Shown piece after piece: positions 16,426-36,599 of a DNA stretch of 38,131 nt. The notes under the pieces were generated by a model. The model did not search any database, was not told the origin of the DNA, and saw only the letters and a list, made by a program, of their open reading frames with translations. Within the stretch, counting starts at the first letter, position 1. The number at the start of each line of letters is the position of its first letter. The stretch comes from a virus: the IMG/VR virus record IMGVR_UViG_3300027749_000248, positions 1 through 38,131 of that record. One strand, given 5' to 3'. The translations under genes and the position numbers were made by a program.

Positions 16426-17217
16426 ATGAACAAAACTATTTTAGTTGCTACTATTGCTACTTTACTTGCAACTGGCTGTACTCGTATCGAAACCGGCCAC
16501 GTCGGTGTTCGCAAGAACTTTAGCAAACAAATTGAATTAACCGAATTGCAGTCTGGTACATTTAACCAAGTGTTAATTGGCGATGTAATTACTATTCCAA
16601 TTAAAGACGTAGCAGCAAGAGTCGAGGACTTAACTCCAGTTGCCAAAGATAACTCTACGATGAAAGACTTTGACGTGCAAGTTATCTACAATGTTAATCC
16701 GGCATCAGTTGCAGAGTTATACTCAACAAAGAACACATCATTTAACGCTTACGAAGATGGTGACACTTACTTAATGTACAACTACATTGTCAGTGCCGCA
16801 CGCAATGCAGTGTACAAATCTGCACGTAAGTATGATGCGCTAGATATGAACGATGCACGACAAGCAATCGAACAAGAAGTCAAAGACATCCTAGTACAAA
16901 CTTTACAAGAAGAAAAGTTAGCCGATGCAGTAACAATTAGTCAAGTGCTAGTGCGTAGTATTGTACCTGCTGATACCGTTGTAGAGTCTGCTAACAACTT
17001 AGTCAAAGCAAAAAATGCGTACAAACAAAAAGAGATCGAAGTGCAGACTGCTAAACAAGAAGCAGAACGTATTGCTGTTCTTAACTCAAACAAAGGTGCT
17101 GTAGAGTATATGAACGCAATGGCAATGATGAATATCTCAGAAGGTATCAAAGAGGGTAAAGTTAATACTATCATTGTACCTGCAAACTTTGACTCGTTAA
17201 TGTTAGGAAACAAATAA
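16426..17217 (+). CDS. SPFH/prohibitin-like lipoprotein
   Basis: 263 residues. A signal sequence with Cys18 after LATG marks a lipoprotein. VGVRKNFSKQIELTELQSGT and PIKDVAARVEDLTPVAKDNS are typical of SPFH/Band 7 domains, followed by a coiled coil rich in Ala/Glu/Lys (KAKNAYKQKEIEVQTAKQEA). SPFH proteins form ring-like membrane scaffolds that modulate proteases. Phage-encoded prohibitin-like proteins are known in aquatic phages. It could protect or remodel the host membrane. Confidence 0.8.
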   Translation: MNKTILVATIATLLATGCTRIETGHVGVRKNFSKQIELTELQSGTFNQVLIGDVITIPIKDVAARVEDLTPVAKDNSTMKDFDVQVIYNVNPASVAELYSTKNTSFNAYEDGDTYLMYNYIVSAARNAVYKSARKYDALDMNDARQAIEQEVKDILVQTLQEEKLADAVTISQVLVRSIVPADTVVESANNLVKAKNAYKQKEIEVQTAKQEAERIAVLNSNKGAVEYMNAMAMMNISEGIKEGKVNTIIVPANFDSLMLGNK

Positions 17218-19896: not shown

Positions 19897-20943
19897 ATGG
19901 CACAGTTAGTAACAGCAACAATAACAGAACAAGAATTTAAAGAACAGTTTGGTTTTGACGAACCAAGTGGTTTGTTTAATGACAGCAAGTTTCGATTGGT
20001 AATTAATCGATTTGGTAGATGCTATTGGCTGTTGTCAATAGACAATTTACAAGGTCCGCGGTTTTCTGGTAACAATGTTTATTATCAAGGAAACAATGCA
20101 AGACTAGTTAGAACCGTGTATCCGCATGCACGTAGAATGATTGATGTGGGCGGCAATGTAGGCAATAACACTATTGCCTACAGCGAATGGGCACAGTTTG
20201 TAGAATCGTTCGAACCTACACCAACAACTTTGATAATGCTCAAAGCCAATTTAGAAATTGCACAGCGTAGTAACCTGCATGGCATATATTGGAAAGGCAG
20301 CAATGAGGAAGGTAGCCTGCATCGCGACACTACTGAAAACGTCAGTTGGTATCATTGGAAAGGCGTTGCCCAATCAATGAACTTAGTCGCACAGCCTACC
20401 ATACATGAAGTAGCAGCAACTAACCGTAACACAGGTACGATCCAAATACAAGATCATATCGAACACGGCGGCCACAACTTTACAATCTACGATGACAAGC
20501 AAATTAAAAAAGCAGTCAACGTTGTAGAAGTACCTTGCAGGACTATAGATTCGTATAACTTTGAAGATGTCGACTTTATTAAGATTGACGTTGAAGGCAG
20601 CGAGTTGTTTGTGATCGAAGGTGCAACCGATACAATTAACCGTTGTCGCCCTAGTGTGCAGGTTGAGATCGTACCCAAACAGTGCCAGCAGTACGGTTAT
20701 GAACCGCAAGCACTTTATGACTTTTTTGACAAACTTGATTACGTGTGCGTGTGTGCAGTTCGTAATCCTGCAAACAGAGATCAGCGCGGATTGTTCTTTG
20801 GTAAGAACATCGGCATGCAGCATAAACAAATTGCCAAATACATGGATCGATTGTTTGTGCCTAGAGAAGTACACGAAGCTACTGATTATGGTGCAATGAA
20901 ACAAACCGCAAACGAATTTGACAATCTATTCGATTTTACTTGA
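19897..20943 (+). CDS. FkbM family SAM methyltransferase
   Basis: 348 residues. MIDVGGNVGNNTIAYSEWA (near residue 80) is the SAM-binding loop, VESFEPTPTTLIMLKANLE continues it, and VDFIKIDVEGSELFVIEGA (near residue 226) followed by RPSVQVEIV is the FkbM C-terminal signature. FkbM enzymes O-methylate sugars or small molecules. The N-terminal 75 residues are extra. With the epimerase at 22814 it could modify a glycan, but the substrate is not readable. Confidence 0.82.
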   Translation: MAQLVTATITEQEFKEQFGFDEPSGLFNDSKFRLVINRFGRCYWLLSIDNLQGPRFSGNNVYYQGNNARLVRTVYPHARRMIDVGGNVGNNTIAYSEWAQFVESFEPTPTTLIMLKANLEIAQRSNLHGIYWKGSNEEGSLHRDTTENVSWYHWKGVAQSMNLVAQPTIHEVAATNRNTGTIQIQDHIEHGGHNFTIYDDKQIKKAVNVVEVPCRTIDSYNFEDVDFIKIDVEGSELFVIEGATDTINRCRPSVQVEIVPKQCQQYGYEPQALYDFFDKLDYVCVCAVRNPANRDQRGLFFGKNIGMQHKQIAKYMDRLFVPREVHEATDYGAMKQTANEFDNLFDFT

Positions 20944-22798: not shown

Positions 22799-22813
22799 TT
22801 TAAGGGAGTGGAT

Positions 22814-23620
22814 ATGAAAATTCTAATTACAGGCCATAATGGATTTATTGGCCGCAACATGGCCGAGTGGATGACTGCAGAAGGATGGGACGTTACTGGC
22901 TGGGATTGGAAAGCCAACGAACTTCCTGATGTTAAACAATACCAATGGGTTATTCACTTAGGTGCAGTAACTGATCATTCAGATGCAGATGTTGACACAA
23001 TCATAAGCATGAACTATGAATTTAGTCAAGCACTGTTTAATGCGTGTAACAAGCACAAAGTACATTTTCAATACGCAAGCTCAAGTGAAGTATACGGTCA
23101 TACTAATAACTTTAGTGAGTTTGCGCCTTGTCATCCACAGACACCTTACGCATGGTCAAAATACTTATTCGACCGTTGGGTGTTACAACAATCACACAAC
23201 GCATTTGTACACGGGTTTAGATACTTTGATGTGTATGGCAAGTACATGTATTTGCAAAGTAACCAATCCAATATCATTCACAACTGGCAAGAAGAGGCTC
23301 GCAAAACGGGCGCAATATCTGTATGGGACAATGCCGATAGAGTAAAGCGTGATTGGGTATGGGTCGGTGATGTATGCAAACTGCATATTGATTTTATTAA
23401 AACAGTTAGAGGTTCCGGTTTATGGAATATAGGCTCTGGGCTATCACATAGTTACTTAGATGTAGCCGAAGCAGTTGCAGAACAAACTGATGCAGTAATC
23501 AAAGTTGTAGAATCAGAAAGTCTAGTAGTACGTGATAGAACCTGTGCAGACTTAACACATTTAAAATCAACAATTGGTAAGCGGCAATGGCTCAACATAT
23601 TTGAATACATCAACCGATAG
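22814..23620 (+). CDS. NAD-dependent sugar epimerase (HldD-like)
   Basis: 268 residues. GHNGFIG at residues 7-13 is the dinucleotide-binding loop, SSSEVYG the Ser of the active site and Y112-x-x-x-K116 (YAWSK) the catalytic pair. FRYFDVYG and RDWVWVGDV resemble ADP-heptose 6-epimerase (HldD) segments. It is slightly shorter than host HldD. A GTG at 22808 is possible, but AAGGGAG sits correctly for the ATG at 22814. It may alter LPS core sugars or a virion glycan. Confidence 0.8.
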   Translation: MKILITGHNGFIGRNMAEWMTAEGWDVTGWDWKANELPDVKQYQWVIHLGAVTDHSDADVDTIISMNYEFSQALFNACNKHKVHFQYASSSEVYGHTNNFSEFAPCHPQTPYAWSKYLFDRWVLQQSHNAFVHGFRYFDVYGKYMYLQSNQSNIIHNWQEEARKTGAISVWDNADRVKRDWVWVGDVCKLHIDFIKTVRGSGLWNIGSGLSHSYLDVAEAVAEQTDAVIKVVESESLVVRDRTCADLTHLKSTIGKRQWLNIFEYINR

Positions 23621-23648: not shown

Positions 23649-24005
23649 ATGAGAGCAAATGAATTTATTAACGAAGATGCAATTGGTACTTCACCAAAGC
23701 GTCCTCGTAGAGAAGGAAGTCGACATAGCCGCGGACACGAGCCGCAGGCAAGATATACAGAAGTAGCTGTTAATGAAGAAGATGTTACCGAAGAGAAAAA
23801 AAGCACAACTGCAATTTGTAAAAGTTCTAAAACAAATGACCAGCTAGGTGCAAGCATGTTATCAAAATGCAAATCACTTGGTTTGCGTGCAAGAGAAGGT
23901 AACAAATCTCATTTAGTAAACGGTAAGCGTATCAAAGTTGGTGGTAAAAAGATCAAAGGAAAAGTACATGGCGGACCATTGCCAGACTGGGGTGAACATA
24001 AATGA
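23649..24005 (+). CDS. Basic tagged protein, candidate internal head protein
   Basis: 118 residues starting MRANEFINED, closely like the tag at 1589 and 30318, with an I-N-E cleavage-type site after residue 9. The mature part is basic (KRPRREGSRHSRGHE) and ends NGKRIKVGGKKIKGKVHGG, suggesting DNA contact inside the head. An exact late promoter lies upstream, and ATGA couples it to the transglycosylase. The role as an internal protein is inferred. Confidence 0.7.
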   Translation: MRANEFINEDAIGTSPKRPRREGSRHSRGHEPQARYTEVAVNEEDVTEEKKSTTAICKSSKTNDQLGASMLSKCKSLGLRAREGNKSHLVNGKRIKVGGKKIKGKVHGGPLPDWGEHK

Positions 24006-24817
24006 GATTTGACGAATTTAAACAATTAAACGAAGACGCTGGATTTTTCCTAGTAGTTCCAAAAGACCGCAGTTGTCCAGAAGTTGCAGACCTTCAAAAA
24101 GTACTAAAAGCGTTTGGTCACAGTTTAGGTCCGCCTGACGTCGACGGTGTTTTGGGTCGATATACTACAGCAGCACTTAAAGGCGCACAAGCAGAGATTG
24201 GGTTACCAGAGACCGGTGTGCCCGATGAAAAGACTATCGAGCTGTTAAACCTAGCATTAAGAGAAGTACCAGAAATCGCAACTAAGCTAACAAAAAGTAC
24301 AGTAGCTGATGTTAGATCAGCAAGTGGTGCAGACAATATCGATGTTAGCACTATACAAGATCCGGACTTTAATAAAAAGCTTGACAACATTGCAAATCAG
24401 TTAGGTGTTAACGCTAGCGACCTGTTAGCGATTATGAAACAAGAGTCAGGTGTTAATCCGCATGCACGTAATAAACAAGGCGGCGCAACTGGGTTAATTC
24501 AATTCATGCCTAACACTGCTAGACGATTAGGAACAACCACAGATGACTTAATAAAAATGACAGCAGTTCAACAGTTAGACTATGTTTATAAATATTTCAA
24601 AATGGTTGGCATTAGACCCGGAATGAAGCTAGGTGACTTATACATGGCAGTGTTCATGCCGAAATATGTAGGACACGGCGATACAACTGTATTAGGTGCA
24701 TCAGGTGCAAGTGGTTTCTCAGGTAAAGTGTATGCACAGAACAAAGGTTTAGATAGAAACAAGGACGGCACTATTACTATTGCCGATGTAAAAAATTCCG
24801 TAGCCCGCTTCGCATAA
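24002..24817 (+). CDS. Lytic transglycosylase with PG-binding domain and tagged N-terminus
   Basis: 271 residues. Tag MRFDEFKQLNED with an L-N-E site; a peptidoglycan-binding domain (about 26-88; VADLQKVLKAFG, then DGVLGRYTTAALKGAQ); an SLT transglycosylase domain with catalytic E148 in KQESGVNPHARN followed by GGATGLIQFMP. A calcium-type loop DRNKDGTITIADV ends it. It cleaves peptidoglycan. The tag suggests head packaging and delivery with DNA rather than use as an endolysin; a baseplate location is the alternative. Confidence 0.85.
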   Translation: MRFDEFKQLNEDAGFFLVVPKDRSCPEVADLQKVLKAFGHSLGPPDVDGVLGRYTTAALKGAQAEIGLPETGVPDEKTIELLNLALREVPEIATKLTKSTVADVRSASGADNIDVSTIQDPDFNKKLDNIANQLGVNASDLLAIMKQESGVNPHARNKQGGATGLIQFMPNTARRLGTTTDDLIKMTAVQQLDYVYKYFKMVGIRPGMKLGDLYMAVFMPKYVGHGDTTVLGASGASGFSGKVYAQNKGLDRNKDGTITIADVKNSVARFA

Positions 24818-27144: not shown

Positions 27145-27374
27145 AAATAGAAGAACTTACTGAATCTCACAAAGATTTAGATAGATATACAGCGTATGCA
27201 AAAACACATTACAGTGAAACAGATCCAACTACTGCAGTATTACAATTATTAGTACGCAGTATTGAACACGGTAAATCAGTCGATGCTGAACAAACTGCAG
27301 CTATTAGGGAATTACAAAAAGAAGTAGAAGCGTTAAAAGGAGCTAACGCTTCTACCATAGCCCCTACTGTTTGA
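27141..27374 (+). CDS. Small tagged protein
   Basis: 77 residues starting MKIEELTESHKDL, with an L-T-E site after residue 8. The mature part is helical (AVLQLLVRSIEHGKSVDAEQ, then IRELQKEVEALKG), a short coiled coil. The ATG overlaps the nuclease stop as ATGA. Its 3' end overlaps the converging ALA synthase gene by 11 bp. Confidence 0.6.
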   Translation: MKIEELTESHKDLDRYTAYAKTHYSETDPTTAVLQLLVRSIEHGKSVDAEQTAAIRELQKEVEALKGANASTIAPTV

Positions 27375-28563
27375 TATCAAACACGATTTTTAGAGCATTA
27401 ATTAAATCTTCAATCATCCCATCGTCATGTAATGGTGTTGGCGCAAAACGCAAACGTTCCGTTCCTTGGGGCACGGTGGGATGATTTATAGCTTGAACAT
27501 AGATATTAAAATCATTTAACAAACGATCACTAATTTCTTTTGCTCTGGTCGCATCTCCTACTAGCACAGGTACAATGTGTGTTGTGCCATCCATTAATGG
27601 AATTCCAGCTTTTCTCATTCTGTGTTTTAATTTTCTAACACGATCTTGAAGACGTTCCCTAATTTCGTTATGCTCCTTTAGATACTTAACTGCTGCCAGC
27701 GCACCGGCACATGTAACTGGACTCATACTTGTTGTAAATATAAATCCTGCTGCAATGGATCGAATTGCATCGATCACAACTGCATCTGCTGCAACATAAC
27801 CGCCCTGGACTCCATACGCTTTACCTAAGGTGCCATTGACTATGTCGACCCTTCCTTGTAATTGTAATTCTTCGAGCTTTCCTGCCCCGTGTTCGCCGTA
27901 TAAGCCCACTGCGTGTACTTCATCTAAGTATGTAATTGCAGAGTATTGATCAGCTAAGTCGCAAATTTCTTTGATAAGACTTACATCTCCATCCATAGAG
28001 TAAATTGATTCAAATACAATACAAGGTACATTCTTGTTTGCTGCTGCACGTTTTAAACATTCTTCTAGGTCATCTAGATCATTATGCTTAAAAATTTGTT
28101 TAGCAGCCTTACTATGACTCATGCCTACGATCAAACTATTGTGATTTTTACTATCACTGATAAATTCAATATTAGGAATAATTTTTGCTAGCGCAATTAA
28201 ACTCCACTCATTCGCAACATACGCACTTGTAAACAACAATGCCCGTTCTTTTTTATGCAAAGATGCAAGTTCATATTCTAAAGCAACGTGATAATGACTA
28301 GTTCCGGAAATGTTCCTAGTACCACCAGAACCTGCACCTGTCATATCTAAAGCAGTATGCATCGCATCTAAGACAATTTTATGCTGTCCCATACCTAAAT
28401 AGTCGTTGCTACACCAGTTAACAATACTTTTAATAGAATACGGTCCATACCAAATAGAATAAGGAAACTTGCCGTTTTCACGTAGCACATCATTGAAGAT
28501 GCGATACTTGCCTTGTTGTTTAAGGTTTTGAATTAGTGTTGTAAATGTTTCGTGGTTAATCAT
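27364..28563 (-). CDS. hemA: 5-aminolevulinate synthase (C4/Shemin pathway)
   Basis: 399 residues, normal bacterial length. GTLGKAYGVQGGY holds PLP-lysine K248; the LGK form separates ALA synthase from KBL and BioF. D214 and H217 lie in YLDEVHAVGLYGEHGAG, and R21, T82 and N84 (GTRNISGT) match the succinyl-CoA contacts of bacterial enzymes. It makes ALA from glycine and succinyl-CoA, the first step of haem and tetrapyrrole synthesis. All key residues are present. The frame runs to 28617, but MINHETF at 28563 fits family starts. No ribosome binding site is visible. It is the only minus-strand gene in the late block. Confidence 0.92.
   Translation of the reverse strand: MINHETFTTLIQNLKQQGKYRIFNDVLRENGKFPYSIWYGPYSIKSIVNWCSNDYLGMGQHKIVLDAMHTALDMTGAGSGGTRNISGTSHYHVALEYELASLHKKERALLFTSAYVANEWSLIALAKIIPNIEFISDSKNHNSLIVGMSHSKAAKQIFKHNDLDDLEECLKRAAANKNVPCIVFESIYSMDGDVSLIKEICDLADQYSAITYLDEVHAVGLYGEHGAGKLEELQLQGRVDIVNGTLGKAYGVQGGYVAADAVVIDAIRSIAAGFIFTTSMSPVTCAGALAAVKYLKEHNEIRERLQDRVRKLKHRMRKAGIPLMDGTTHIVPVLVGDATRAKEISDRLLNDFNIYVQAINHPTVPQGTERLRFAPTPLHDDGMIEDLINALKIVFDIKQ
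27368..27383. repeat. 16-bp perfect palindrome at convergent stops
   Basis: TGTTTGATATCAAACA covers the stop region of gene 27141-27374 and the last codons of hemA. It may act as a bidirectional transcription end without T-tracts or as a protein site. Confidence 0.5.
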
Positions 28564-28571
28564 AGTACAGC

Positions 28572-28579
28572 TATTTAAT
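28572..28579 (-). promoter_or_regulatory. Weak late-type octamer ATTAAATA before hemA
   Basis: On the minus strand ATTAAATA, eight nt before the hemA ATG at 28563, back-to-back with the plus-strand octamer at 28580. Two mismatches from consensus. Confidence 0.35.
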
Positions 28580-28587
28580 AATAAATA
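28580..28587 (+). promoter_or_regulatory. T4-late-like octamer AATAAATA
   Basis: AATAAATA, 18 nt before the start at 28606, with AAGGAT as ribosome binding site. Confidence 0.55.
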
Positions 28588-28605
28588 TACGATAAGGATA
28601 CAAAT

Positions 28606-28989
28606 ATGAGAGTTCAAGATATAATCAGAAGTTTAATCGACTTTATCGACAATGTTGATTCAACGCATGTTGCACCGATTGATACAATTGATCACAAAGC
28701 AAGCCCGTTAACACATGCCGGGGATGACATAAATCGATTTAAACAAATTGTCGATTTAGCAGATAGCCCGTATAGACATGCATACACTAACGAACCAGTT
28801 CCGGCTTATGCTGATTTAGATTCGGTTACTATTCATGCAGGCGGTGGGATGAATGGCCCAAAACATCCTGCTGATATTAGAGTCAAAGATCCAAGTGCAT
28901 ATCCGCATTTAATAGATAAAGAAATAGAAGAACCAGTTTCAGCTCATCCTGAACATATTGTAATGATTAAAGCAATGAGGGGACAATAA
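28606..28989 (+). CDS. Putative virion protein
   Basis: 127 residues starting MRVQDIIRSLIDFIDN, weakly like the tags but without an (L/I)-x-E site. DINRFKQIVDLADSPYRHAY and YADLDSVTIHAGGGMNGPKH are Gly/His-rich; the layout matches structural-region proteins of T4-like aquatic phages as I recall them. TAATG overlap with the next gene. Confidence 0.6.
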   Translation: MRVQDIIRSLIDFIDNVDSTHVAPIDTIDHKASPLTHAGDDINRFKQIVDLADSPYRHAYTNEPVPAYADLDSVTIHAGGGMNGPKHPADIRVKDPSAYPHLIDKEIEEPVSAHPEHIVMIKAMRGQ

Positions 28990-33803: not shown

Positions 33804-34006
33804 AACTAAACGAGTTGATCGATAGTTTTGAAATTTGGACAACTAACGAAGAAGCAGTATTGTTGAAAAAATTAAAATACCCAGTTAAACTAGCCCAGCT
33901 AAACGAACATGATCAAGTCAGAGTTCAGGCGATGATTCGTAAAAGTTTGGTAACTAAAATAGGACACAAAGACCCTATGGTGGTTGCAAATGAAAGACCA
34001 AACTAA
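33800..34006 (+). CDS. Small protein with tag-like start
   Basis: 68 residues starting MKLNELIDSFEIW, similar to the tags though no clean (L/I)-x-E site. Basic C-terminus (VQAMIRKSLVTKIGHK). ATGA overlap with the gene before; the next gene starts inside its 3' end. Confidence 0.55.
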   Translation: MKLNELIDSFEIWTTNEEAVLLKKLKYPVKLAQLNEHDQVRVQAMIRKSLVTKIGHKDPMVVANERPN

Positions 34007-34430
34007 AACAATTAAAGAACTAGCAAGCTACTTTGATAAAGAATTACAAACAAAATTACCTATATCAGTATTACCAGATGGCTCATTAGTTTATAAAAAC
34101 TTTTTAGTAAGGCAATTAGACAATGAAAACTGGGGTGTATTTAATATCGAGTCTAAAGATTTAGTTAATCAATATTATTTAAAAAGTTGTGCGTTAGTTG
34201 CTGCAAAAGCATACAATTATAAACACTTTAACAAATATTTTGAAATTGAAAATTTAGATAAAAAATATCAAACAAATTACCATAACTTCCTAGTATTAAA
34301 GAACAATATTAAGTCAGTTAGTGATTCGGAAAAGTATCATGTAATGCTAACTAGGCTAGAAGAAAGTAGCCAACAAGCGTACTACTATAAGCAACTGATT
34401 TCTCGATTACTTCGTAGAACTTTTGTATAA
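33990..34430 (+). CDS. Unknown virion-region protein
   Basis: 146 residues. IKELASYFDKELQTKLPISV, then VYKNFLVRQLDNENWGVFNI and CALVAAKAYNYKHFNKYFEI. The C-terminal half is helical and ends RLLRRTFV. I do not recognise a family. The TAA stop lies inside the late promoter octamer of the next gene. Confidence 0.6.
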   Translation: MKDQTKTIKELASYFDKELQTKLPISVLPDGSLVYKNFLVRQLDNENWGVFNIESKDLVNQYYLKSCALVAAKAYNYKHFNKYFEIENLDKKYQTNYHNFLVLKNNIKSVSDSEKYHVMLTRLEESSQQAYYYKQLISRLLRRTFV

Positions 34431-34463: not shown

Positions 34464-35495
34464 ATGCAGATTAAAGATTTATCACAGCCTATAACTAGTA
34501 AAAAACTAAACGAAAGTTTAGCAAAAAACTTTGGTTATAAATTAAAATTAGAACAATTTTCAGACGTGCAATTAGAAGATGTGCGTAATAGACTTCGCAC
34601 TGAACTAAGCCAAATGGAAATGAACGAAAGCTACGACAGTATTTTAGAAAGCCCTGCTTATCAAAAAACTCGTGCATTATTAGACGTTGTTAACCAAGCG
34701 TTATCAGAACGCGAAATGAACGAATCATACGAGCAAGACGAAGTAACTGGCAAAGTTACCAGTAAAAAAGATTACTCAGGTAGTGCAGATTCTTCTAAAG
34801 CTAAAAAAGATAAAAAACCTAAAAAAGAAGTTAACGAAGCTGCATTAATTGCAACTATTCGTCAACGTGCAGAAGCGGCATCAATTCCAGCAAGTTGGAT
34901 TCAAAGTGCGTTAAATCGTATTCGATTAGGTGAATCGGACAGACAAGAATTAAAAGCAGAATTAAGATTGCGTTACGATCTTAATGAAGCGCAGGCAAGC
35001 TGGTTGCTAGTTGAAGGCGAAGAAACAAAAGCAGAGAATATCATCGCATCAAAAGACATGATTGACCGTATTACAGGTTGGTTAGAAGATGTTGCTGCAA
35101 TGAAATCAGAGCAGCTTTTAGAATTATTAGACTCTATAAGAGAACAACAAGGCAGCGATGTTGCCCAAAAATATCAAGATGCAGTTAAACCTGCATTAGA
35201 AGCAATCTATACAGCATTAGAAACAAGCCGTCAAGGTTTGTCACAAGGGCTTGCAGTTGTTTCAGGCAGAGAAGTCGAAACATTAGGCGCACCAGTAAGC
35301 GGCGCAATGGGCAGTGAAATGGGCAGTGAAATGGACGCAGCTTTAGGAGGTGAATCACCTGCAGGTCCAGAAGGTCCAGGTTTACCAGGTGGTGAAGAAC
35401 TTCCTCCTCCGTCTACTGAAGCGGGTCGTATGAAACGTGAAAGCGTCGAGTATAGCCGTAAATTAGGCATGTTGTTAAGCTCAAAAAAAAAGTAA
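34464..35495 (+). CDS. Virion/prohead-core-like protein, probable frameshift parent
   Basis: 343 residues starting MQIKDLSQPITSKKLNES, with several L-x-E sites (KLNE, ILESP, ALSERE). Two NES repeats (MEMNESYDSI, REMNESYEQ) precede a Lys-rich linker. The middle is helical (DMIDRITGWLEDVAAMKSEQ); the C-terminus is Gly/Pro/Met-rich and ends SRKLGMLLSSKKK. The many cleavage-type sites and helical composition suggest a scaffold or core protein. Nine A residues at 35483-35491 just before TAA form a slippery site for -1 frameshifting into the frame that ends at 35842. Confidence 0.7.
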   Translation: MQIKDLSQPITSKKLNESLAKNFGYKLKLEQFSDVQLEDVRNRLRTELSQMEMNESYDSILESPAYQKTRALLDVVNQALSEREMNESYEQDEVTGKVTSKKDYSGSADSSKAKKDKKPKKEVNEAALIATIRQRAEAASIPASWIQSALNRIRLGESDRQELKAELRLRYDLNEAQASWLLVEGEETKAENIIASKDMIDRITGWLEDVAAMKSEQLLELLDSIREQQGSDVAQKYQDAVKPALEAIYTALETSRQGLSQGLAVVSGREVETLGAPVSGAMGSEMGSEMDAALGGESPAGPEGPGLPGGEELPPPSTEAGRMKRESVEYSRKLGMLLSSKKK

Positions 35496-35534
35496 ATGAA
35501 TCAATCGAGCCTTTAGCGTTAAAGTTAAGGGCTC
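35483..35534 (+). promoter_or_regulatory. Candidate -1 ribosomal frameshift signal
   Basis: A-AAA-AAA and A-AAA-AAG heptamers in a run of nine A (35483-35491), one codon before TAA. It is followed after 15 nt by a 10-pair stem (35507-35516 with 35525-35534, two G-U pairs, 8-nt loop). A_AAA_AAG is the dnaX slip sequence. The spacer is longer than usual. Confidence 0.6.
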
Positions 35535-35842
35535 TTCAATCCGCTGCAAACCATCAACATTCACAAGCACCCTTAACATGGACTGCGATCAATAATATGA
35601 TTGGTCAAGGTGACACTGCTGCACCTTCAATTTCTTACGACGGATTTGCAAAAATTTGGAGAGACGAAGAACAGTTACCCCCAGAACAACAAACATTTCA
35701 TCACTTAGTTGATCGTTTTGACGGAGCCGGATTGGTTATTAAAACTGCAGCAAAAGATCCTACATCAGCAACACAACACAAAGAGCCAGAAGGTCAAGTA
35801 TCTAAAATGGCAAAACATTTCATTCATAAATCAAGAAAATAA
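35492..35842 (+). CDS. C-terminal extension reached by -1 frameshift
   Basis: 116 residues in the -1 frame, starting VNESIEPLALKLRALQSAA and containing YDGFAKIWRDEEQLPPEQQT and FHHLVDRFDGAGLVIKTAAK. It is open from the slip site without a stop, and no ATG, GTG or TTG occurs before 35597. That ATG has no ribosome binding site and would drop a coding-like stretch. VNES echoes the NES motifs of the parent. The alternative is a separate 81-residue gene from 35597, or an assembly indel in the A run. Confidence 0.65.
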   Translation, partial: VNESIEPLALKLRALQSAANHQHSQAPLTWTAINNMIGQGDTAAPSISYDGFAKIWRDEEQLPPEQQTFHHLVDRFDGAGLVIKTAAKDPTSATQHKEPEGQVSKMAKHFIHKSRK

Positions 35843-35879: not shown

Positions 35880-36599
35880 ATGACATTATTAACTAAAAAG
35901 TTTGATTATCAACAAATAAATAGAGAATCTGTAGAGGGCAAGCGATTGTATTCTTGCCCTGACGGTTCCAAAGTGCCATCTGTAACAACAATACTCGAAA
36001 AAACAAAATCAGAAGAATCTAAGGCTGCATTACAAAATTGGCGAAACCGTGTCGGTCACGTACAAGCACAACAGATTACCACAGAGGCAGCTAGTCGAGG
36101 CACTAGGATGCACAAGTATCTAGAAGATTACATCATCTCAGGAGAAGTAAGCACGCCCGGTACTAATCCATATAGTCACCAAAGTCATAAAATGGCTAAA
36201 CACGTTATCGAAAACGGATTAGTCAATGTAAATGAAATTTGGGGAGTAGAAGTTGGTTTGTATCATCCAGAAATTTATGCAGGTACAACTGACTGTGTCG
36301 GGTTACATCAAAACGAAGAGTCAATTTTAGATTTTAAACAATCAAACAAGCCTAAAAAACTCGAATGGGTCGAAGACTACTTCTTACAACTAACTGCATA
36401 CGCATTAGCACACAACGAAATATATAAAACAAACATCCGAAAAGGTGTTGTTCTTATGTGTGTCAAGCCGCCCGAGCTTAGTCCGTGTATATGGGGAGAT
36501 CCGCAGTATCAAGAATTTATCTTAGAGTCAAGAGACTTTGAATACTGGGAAAACAAATGGTGGGATCGAGTTGGAATGTATATCGAACGTTACAGATAA
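35880..36599 (+). CDS. PD-(D/E)XK family nuclease
   Basis: 239 residues. VPSVTTILEKTKSEE, H78 in RGTRMHKYLE, E124 in WGVEVGLYHP, D138 in GTTDCVG and D151-x-K153 in ILDFKQS, then WVEDYFLQLTAYALAHNEIY. This is the order of the Cas4/RecB-like exonuclease core (E, D, D-x-K, Q-x-x-x-Y), without an obvious iron-sulfur cluster. It could recombine or degrade DNA ends. It sits in the late block with its own sigma70-type promoter and no ribosome binding site. Confidence 0.85.
   Translation: MTLLTKKFDYQQINRESVEGKRLYSCPDGSKVPSVTTILEKTKSEESKAALQNWRNRVGHVQAQQITTEAASRGTRMHKYLEDYIISGEVSTPGTNPYSHQSHKMAKHVIENGLVNVNEIWGVEVGLYHPEIYAGTTDCVGLHQNEESILDFKQSNKPKKLEWVEDYFLQLTAYALAHNEIYKTNIRKGVVLMCVKPPELSPCIWGDPQYQEFILESRDFEYWENKWWDRVGMYIERYR

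Follow-up and report, generated by a model that had tools for sequence, protein, structure and literature searches.

We identified at the 3' end of a virion protein gene of an uncultured phage a conserved junction that probably (we put the probability at about 0.72) programs a -1 ribosomal frameshift, so that the gene yields a 343-residue protein and a 459-residue form in which the same protein is tethered to a C-terminal extension. The gene is located in a window of 38,131 nucleotides, by which we mean the whole stretch of viral DNA that was analyzed. The features of the locus are:

33984-34430, plus strand: small upstream gene adjoining the parent gene (open reading frame), a context conserved in the clade
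34464-35495, plus strand: parent gene (open reading frame), 343 residues
35483-35491, plus strand: run of nine A (A9) with two tandem in-frame slip heptamers, kept in 73 of 73 non-redundant loci
35492-35842, plus strand: -1-frame extension of 116 codons and a TAA (open reading frame list, alignment, AlphaFold model)
35493-35495, plus strand: zero-frame TAA stop abutting the slip site, the same codon in all 73 loci
35497-35499, plus strand: third-frame (+1) TGA close behind the slip site, with a similarly close third-frame stop in nearly all relatives
35507-35534, plus strand: stem-loop with arms 35507-35517 and 35524-35534 and loop 35518-35523 (RNAfold, resampling, covariation)
35880-36599, plus strand: downstream exonuclease gene (PHROG 298, E 4.6e-54; 44% identity to the XaC1 exonuclease)

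The 3' end of the parent gene reads TCA-AAA-AAA-AAG-TAA, with the nine A at 35483-35491, a G at 35492 and the zero-frame TAA at 35493-35495. This is the sole run of A or T longer than 7 in the 38-kb window, and it holds two in-frame heptamers of the X_XXY_YYZ form: A_AAA_AAA (35483-35489) and A_AAA_AAG (35486-35492). The preliminary description of this DNA had named A_AAA_AAG as the slip site; the heptamer is present, but in tandem with A_AAA_AAA rather than alone. The -1 frame, shut before 35462, stays open from there until the TAA at 35840-35842. Its part beyond the slip site has 116 codons (35492-35839), the first ATG, GTG or TTG being the ATG at 35597. The sequence agrees on these points with what had been described: an A9 run before the stop, a -1 frame open for 116 codons and no start before 35597. 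The suggested echo of parent NES motifs in the VNES that begins the extension is not supported: the TAA stop dictates codon 1 (NTA) as well as the base with which codon 2 begins, and the Glu alone is conserved in the family. Long open -1 frames past stops are common in the window because its genes overlap; the case for recoding therefore rests on comparison across relatives.

Relatives were collected with the parent protein, which as a query matched 4 loci in IMG/VR; profiles from these gave 293 and 413 matching stretches, from each of which we took the best 80, some contigs coming up twice. The analyzed set comprised 133 IMG/VR loci from many metagenomes, the window included, and 73 after removal of near-duplicates. 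Among the matches listed, the junction (T/C)CA AAA AAA AA(G/A/C) TAA was present in 133 of 133 loci analyzed, and a single fused frame in none of them. Such an arrangement is not chance. The 73 non-redundant loci carry TCA...AAG (57), TCA...AAA (9), TCA...AAC (6) or CCA...AAG (1), which makes the run A9 in 64 and A10 in 9; A_AAA_AAA is invariant in all loci and A_AAA_AA(G/A/C) is found in 73 of 73. The -1 extension is open for 101-124 codons throughout the 133 loci and can be aligned in each of the 73. Mean pairwise identity among the first 52 representatives is 63% for the parent and 40% (minimum 19%) for the extension, whose alignment contains invariant or nearly invariant residues. Being alignable at this lower mean identity, the extension evolves as a real protein. 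Used alone as a query, it found no relatives in IMG/VR or in GenBank phages, because it diverges fast and its relatives are reached via the parent; the GTDB contigs searched held no relatives either. Some loci lie on contigs of up to 356 kb, and the clade appears to be a large uncultured phage group, mostly jumbo-sized, with T4-type capsids; 3 of 6 tested contigs have a T4-type gp23 capsid gene. The contigs without gp23 among those six may be incomplete. This comparative evidence supports the initial proposal that programmed -1 recoding joins a C-terminal extension onto a virion protein.

Codon choice at the junction is more constrained than the protein sequence requires. Of the 146 slip Lys codons (two per locus), every one is AAA, against a parent background of 66% AAA among Lys codons, and the Ser codon before the run is TCA in 72 of 72, against 33% TCA; Ser340 shows the largest excess of codon conservation in the parent gene. 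That the slip codons are invariant while synonymous choice varies elsewhere points to selection at the RNA level. In the third frame, all 73 loci have a stop no more than five codons in, and at 55 of them it comes one codon in; by a stricter measure, early third-frame stops are found in 69 of 73 loci versus about 60% expected from synonymous resampling. In 65 of the 73 loci, the third base of extension codon 2 is T. The early stop and this T could guard against wrong-frame products or provide a spacer of low structure. An upstream Shine-Dalgarno-like stimulator is absent in 69 of 73 loci and present in 4.

Downstream of the slip site, RNAfold predicts for the window an 11-pair stem with a 6-nt loop (-17.5 kcal/mol) that starts 14 nt past the slip site; a hairpin had been noted before, albeit as a 10-pair stem-loop 15 nt downstream. 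Its core has a z-score of -5.9 versus synonymous-codon controls. When 55-nt stretches of the extension were compared with synonymous resampling in the 73 loci, the mean z was -3.58 just past the slip site, where 84% of the loci were below -2, and about 0 from extension nucleotide 96 on. In a 64-sequence alignment, 74.7% of the cells of a 14-pair stem are paired versus 31-44% in slid controls, 50 cells have both sides changed versus 17 in shuffles, and the covariation score is 0.197 versus at most 0.132 in controls; the sequences are related, hence not independent trials, and the slid controls keep the same relatedness. RNAalifold gave no consensus on the whole mixed alignment, and the named structure was counted instead. 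A significant core hairpin is missing in 9 of the 73 loci. The downstream structure is under selection, and its stimulation of frameshifting is putative. The spacer to the hairpin core is 14 nt in 40 loci, 17 in 14, 20 in 1, 23 in 10 and 26 in 8, a distance both more variable and greater than the customary 5-9 nt; 3' stimulators that begin 12-15 nt from the shift site are a minority (PMC5009743). Eight loci (L076, L080, L124, L134, L136, L143, L146 and L152) carry a 12-nt insertion (VIQ.I.ES) between the slip site and the core, and this group has a strong hairpin (mean z -5.0) despite a 26-nt core spacer. Such a combination is hard to square with a canonical stimulator.

The same 459-residue protein could arise if RNA polymerase slipped on the run and added one A in some transcripts, producing an A10 mRNA, as has precedent in Thermus dnaX and Shigella spa13 (PMC5009743). 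We regard this as rather unlikely, though several features of the junction speak for it. None of the 73 loci departs from a run of exactly 9 or 10 A, the invariant third-position A of the TCA codon is superfluous for the A_AAA_AAG heptamer, and the early third-frame stops look as if products shifted by +1 or -1 needed quick termination. The invariant nine A's are, however, also explained by the tandem heptamer A_AAA_AAA. The hairpin weighs on both sides: its 14-nt spacer, looser than usual, keeps the polymerase in play, yet a selected, covarying structure 3' of the run cannot be nascent RNA during slippage. As the hairpin is still untranscribed while RNA polymerase is on the A-run, its selection favors slippage by the ribosome.

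The parent belongs to a family of virion proteins, with 51 of 52 parents matching PHROG 14154 ("virion structural protein," head and packaging). Its AlphaFold model (pLDDT 74, pTM 0.38) is all-helical, with a disordered linker at about residues 271-317 and a C-terminal helix at 319-342; against the PDB it returned helical-bundle matches only (best Z 9.3), which are uninformative. The extension was modeled at pLDDT 72, with residues 88-116 of low confidence, as a winged-helix-like domain at about residues 1-88, a low-confidence linker and a C-terminal V.KMAK motif. The topology of the model fits H-S-H-H-S-S and suggests a resemblance to a winged helix; matches to solved structures are weak (best VIA Z 5.7, rmsd 2.9 over 72 residues; no Foldseek match with E < 0.1). 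Pfam had no match for the parent or extension of the window and gave scattered weak hits in other extension members, and sequence searches of the PDB returned weak hits only, which we judged to be chance.

The commonest annotated frameshift in tailed phages is that of the tail assembly chaperone (PMC10885494), and a lambda G/GT-type role, in which the frameshift serves tail assembly and not the finished virion, had to be weighed. This reading is very improbable. The neighbors of the gene are the exonuclease and small genes, with no tape-measure gene; no tail assembly chaperone PHROG is among the parent matches listed, the family of the parent being assigned to head and packaging; and the parent homologue of phage CBB, CBB_298, was detected in purified virions. 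We rejected the chaperone on the gene context and on this virion mass spectrometry.

The CBB protein is one of a set of homologues in distant jumbo phages. A search with the parent-core consensus finds phages of the 121Q/RaK2 group and Atu_ph07, and hhalign aligns the parent with the RaK2/121Q gp27 family at 96.9% (E 1.6e-10); 121Q gp27 also matches PHROG 14154. In 121Q, XaC1, Vibrio 2.275.O, GAP32, RaK2, Munch, BF, Hallingskeid and CBB, a separate small gene, encoding about 107-118 residues and starting at an ATG of its own, comes next after the gp27 homologue, and an exonuclease gene comes after that. This order matches parent, extension and exonuclease in the window, the exonuclease serving as a shared syntenic marker. 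The virion proteins of CBB include CBB_298 (10 unique peptides, 35.8% coverage) and CBB_299 (2 peptides, 20%) (PMC5259590), which in the CBB record are the gp27-like and small-gene pair. Most likely the small virion protein of RaK2/121Q-like phages is made from its own gene. The closest relatives of the exonuclease outside the RaK2-like phages (023Pt_psg01 and DSL-LC04) have no annotated parent neighbors.

Is the extension a counterpart of this small protein? The sequence signal between the extension and the gp28 family (PHROG 15050) is weak (hhalign probability 13%, E 0.002), and none of the extensions matched PHROG 15050; the score of 23.1 exceeds those of all 100 column shuffles (maximum 20.7). 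The two agree in order, length and layout, with that of gp28 judged by eye from sequence: helix, strand, two helices, hairpin, linker and a C-terminal V..MA..A motif. Comparison with BFVD matched the parent model to proteins of RaK2 and Atu_ph07 and, weakly, the extension model to a 128-residue Atu_ph07 protein (E 2.4), 128 residues being the length of the gene directly after the Atu_ph07 parent homologue. We consider it likely that the extension is homologous to gp28. The presence of separate genes in both RaK2-like phages and Atu_ph07 suggests that the frameshift is the derived state, probably so on the distribution of the genes rather than on a rooted tree. Relatives with two genes, which had been named as grounds against recoding, thus exist among the distant RaK2/121Q-like phages but not in this clade.

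These phages, in expressing a protein of similar size from its own ATG, also raise the possibility that the extension is an independent gene translated from the ATG at 35597 or by re-initiation, with the open frame upstream being incidental. Two loci (L054 and L059) have an in-frame ATG overlapping the zero-frame stop (TAATG). Nonetheless, the first in-frame start comes late: 104 nt beyond the stop in the window, and over 180 nt beyond it in roughly a dozen loci. The ATG at 35597 is preceded by the conserved beginning of the domain (E..DPLV..L), and the invariant A9 is left unexplained; we consider an independent gene highly improbable. In L054 and L059, re-initiation at the TAATG might additionally yield the extension as a protein of its own. 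Finally, although homopolymers are error-prone in principle, we rejected an assembly or sequencing error (a true run of 8 or 10 A, as the preliminary description had cautioned) or a pseudogene as practically refuted, for the same run and frame relation recur in 133 loci, 73 of them non-redundant, from many metagenomes.

Under programmed -1 ribosomal frameshifting, most ribosomes would terminate at the TAA at 35493 to produce the 343-residue virion protein. Some would shift into the -1 frame at the A9 Lys codons, aided by the hairpin, and read 116 further codons to make the 459-residue form with its winged-helix-like domain. In E. coli, A_AAA_AAG is far more shift-prone than A_AAA_AAC or A_AAA_AAA (PMC5009743). 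Frameshifting would replace separate initiation and tether the domain to a sub-stoichiometric share of the parent subunits. We infer that the long form enters the virion, where its extension would play its role, and that the efficiency of slippage probably sets the copy ratio in the particle. A broader proposal, which we advance tentatively and hold to be possible rather than likely, is that a gene boundary was replaced by a cassette. A pair of virion genes, which RaK2-like and Atu_ph07-like jumbo phages have kept apart, would have been fused via a dual-use A9 (tandem heptamers and possibly polymerase slippage), a third-frame-stop guard and a distant hairpin, thereby setting the ratio at which a tethered DNA-binding-like domain occurs in the particle.

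Elsewhere in the window, a 417-residue class I/II aminotransferase (27364-28617, minus strand; PF00155, E 1.7e-65; no PHROG match) lies on the opposite strand within a plus-strand phage gene cluster and is a candidate auxiliary metabolic gene. An FkbM-type methyltransferase (19897-20943, plus strand; PF05050) and a nearby nucleotide-sugar epimerase-like gene (22808-23620; PHROG 540) may form a sugar-modification cassette. The window also encodes an SPFH/Band 7 domain protein (16426-17217, plus strand; PF01145, E 1.5e-16; PHROG 200, "lipoprotein") and a protein (24002-24817, plus strand) whose second half matches T4 baseplate hub (PHROG 196) and transglycosylase families.

Our literature search returned no report of this frameshift, the paper on jumbo phage PaBG mentioning dnaX frameshifting only, and we found no annotation of this recoding gene in the papers and databases searched. 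Ordinary gene calling stops the protein at the TAA, losing the extension, or starts the extension late. The locus brings to a large uncultured phage group a recoding gene that is very well conserved and encodes neither a capsid protein nor a tail chaperone. Its unusual features are the tandem heptamers in A9, the distant hairpin and a gene pair apparently replaced by recoding, and the cassette could be used to test the action of distant hairpins and nine-A runs as well as joint slippage by ribosome and polymerase.

Frameshifted, extended structural proteins are already known from gene 10 of T7/T3 and from Listeria phages (PMC5009743). As in T7/T3 gene 10 (10A/10B) and Listeria A118, A500 and PSA, one structural gene here would provide a short form and a C-terminally extended, frameshifted form. 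There the recoded genes are for major capsid or tail-shaft proteins and use different slip sites, whereas ours encodes a helical virion protein and has an A9 site and a winged-helix-like extension. The slip heptamer and 3' stem-loop are shared with E. coli dnaX and the A_AAA_AAG cassettes of the IS3 family; unlike these, the site described here has no upstream Shine-Dalgarno element, a hairpin at least 14 nt away and tandem heptamers in nine A's, and frameshifting here yields the longer of the two products, the reverse of the situation in dnaX. With Thermus dnaX and Shigella spa13 it has in common a slippage-prone homopolymer and two protein lengths, but here the downstream hairpin is under selection. 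The closest parallel in gene content is the gp27-gp28 pair of RaK2, 121Q, GAP32 and CBB, with a homologous parent, a syntenic small protein comparable in size and apparent topology, and the same exonuclease; these phages have two genes with their own ATG and no slip site, in contrast to one gene with a -1 frameshift. The comparison amounts to a natural experiment in which seemingly the same two products are made via two genes or via one frameshifting gene.
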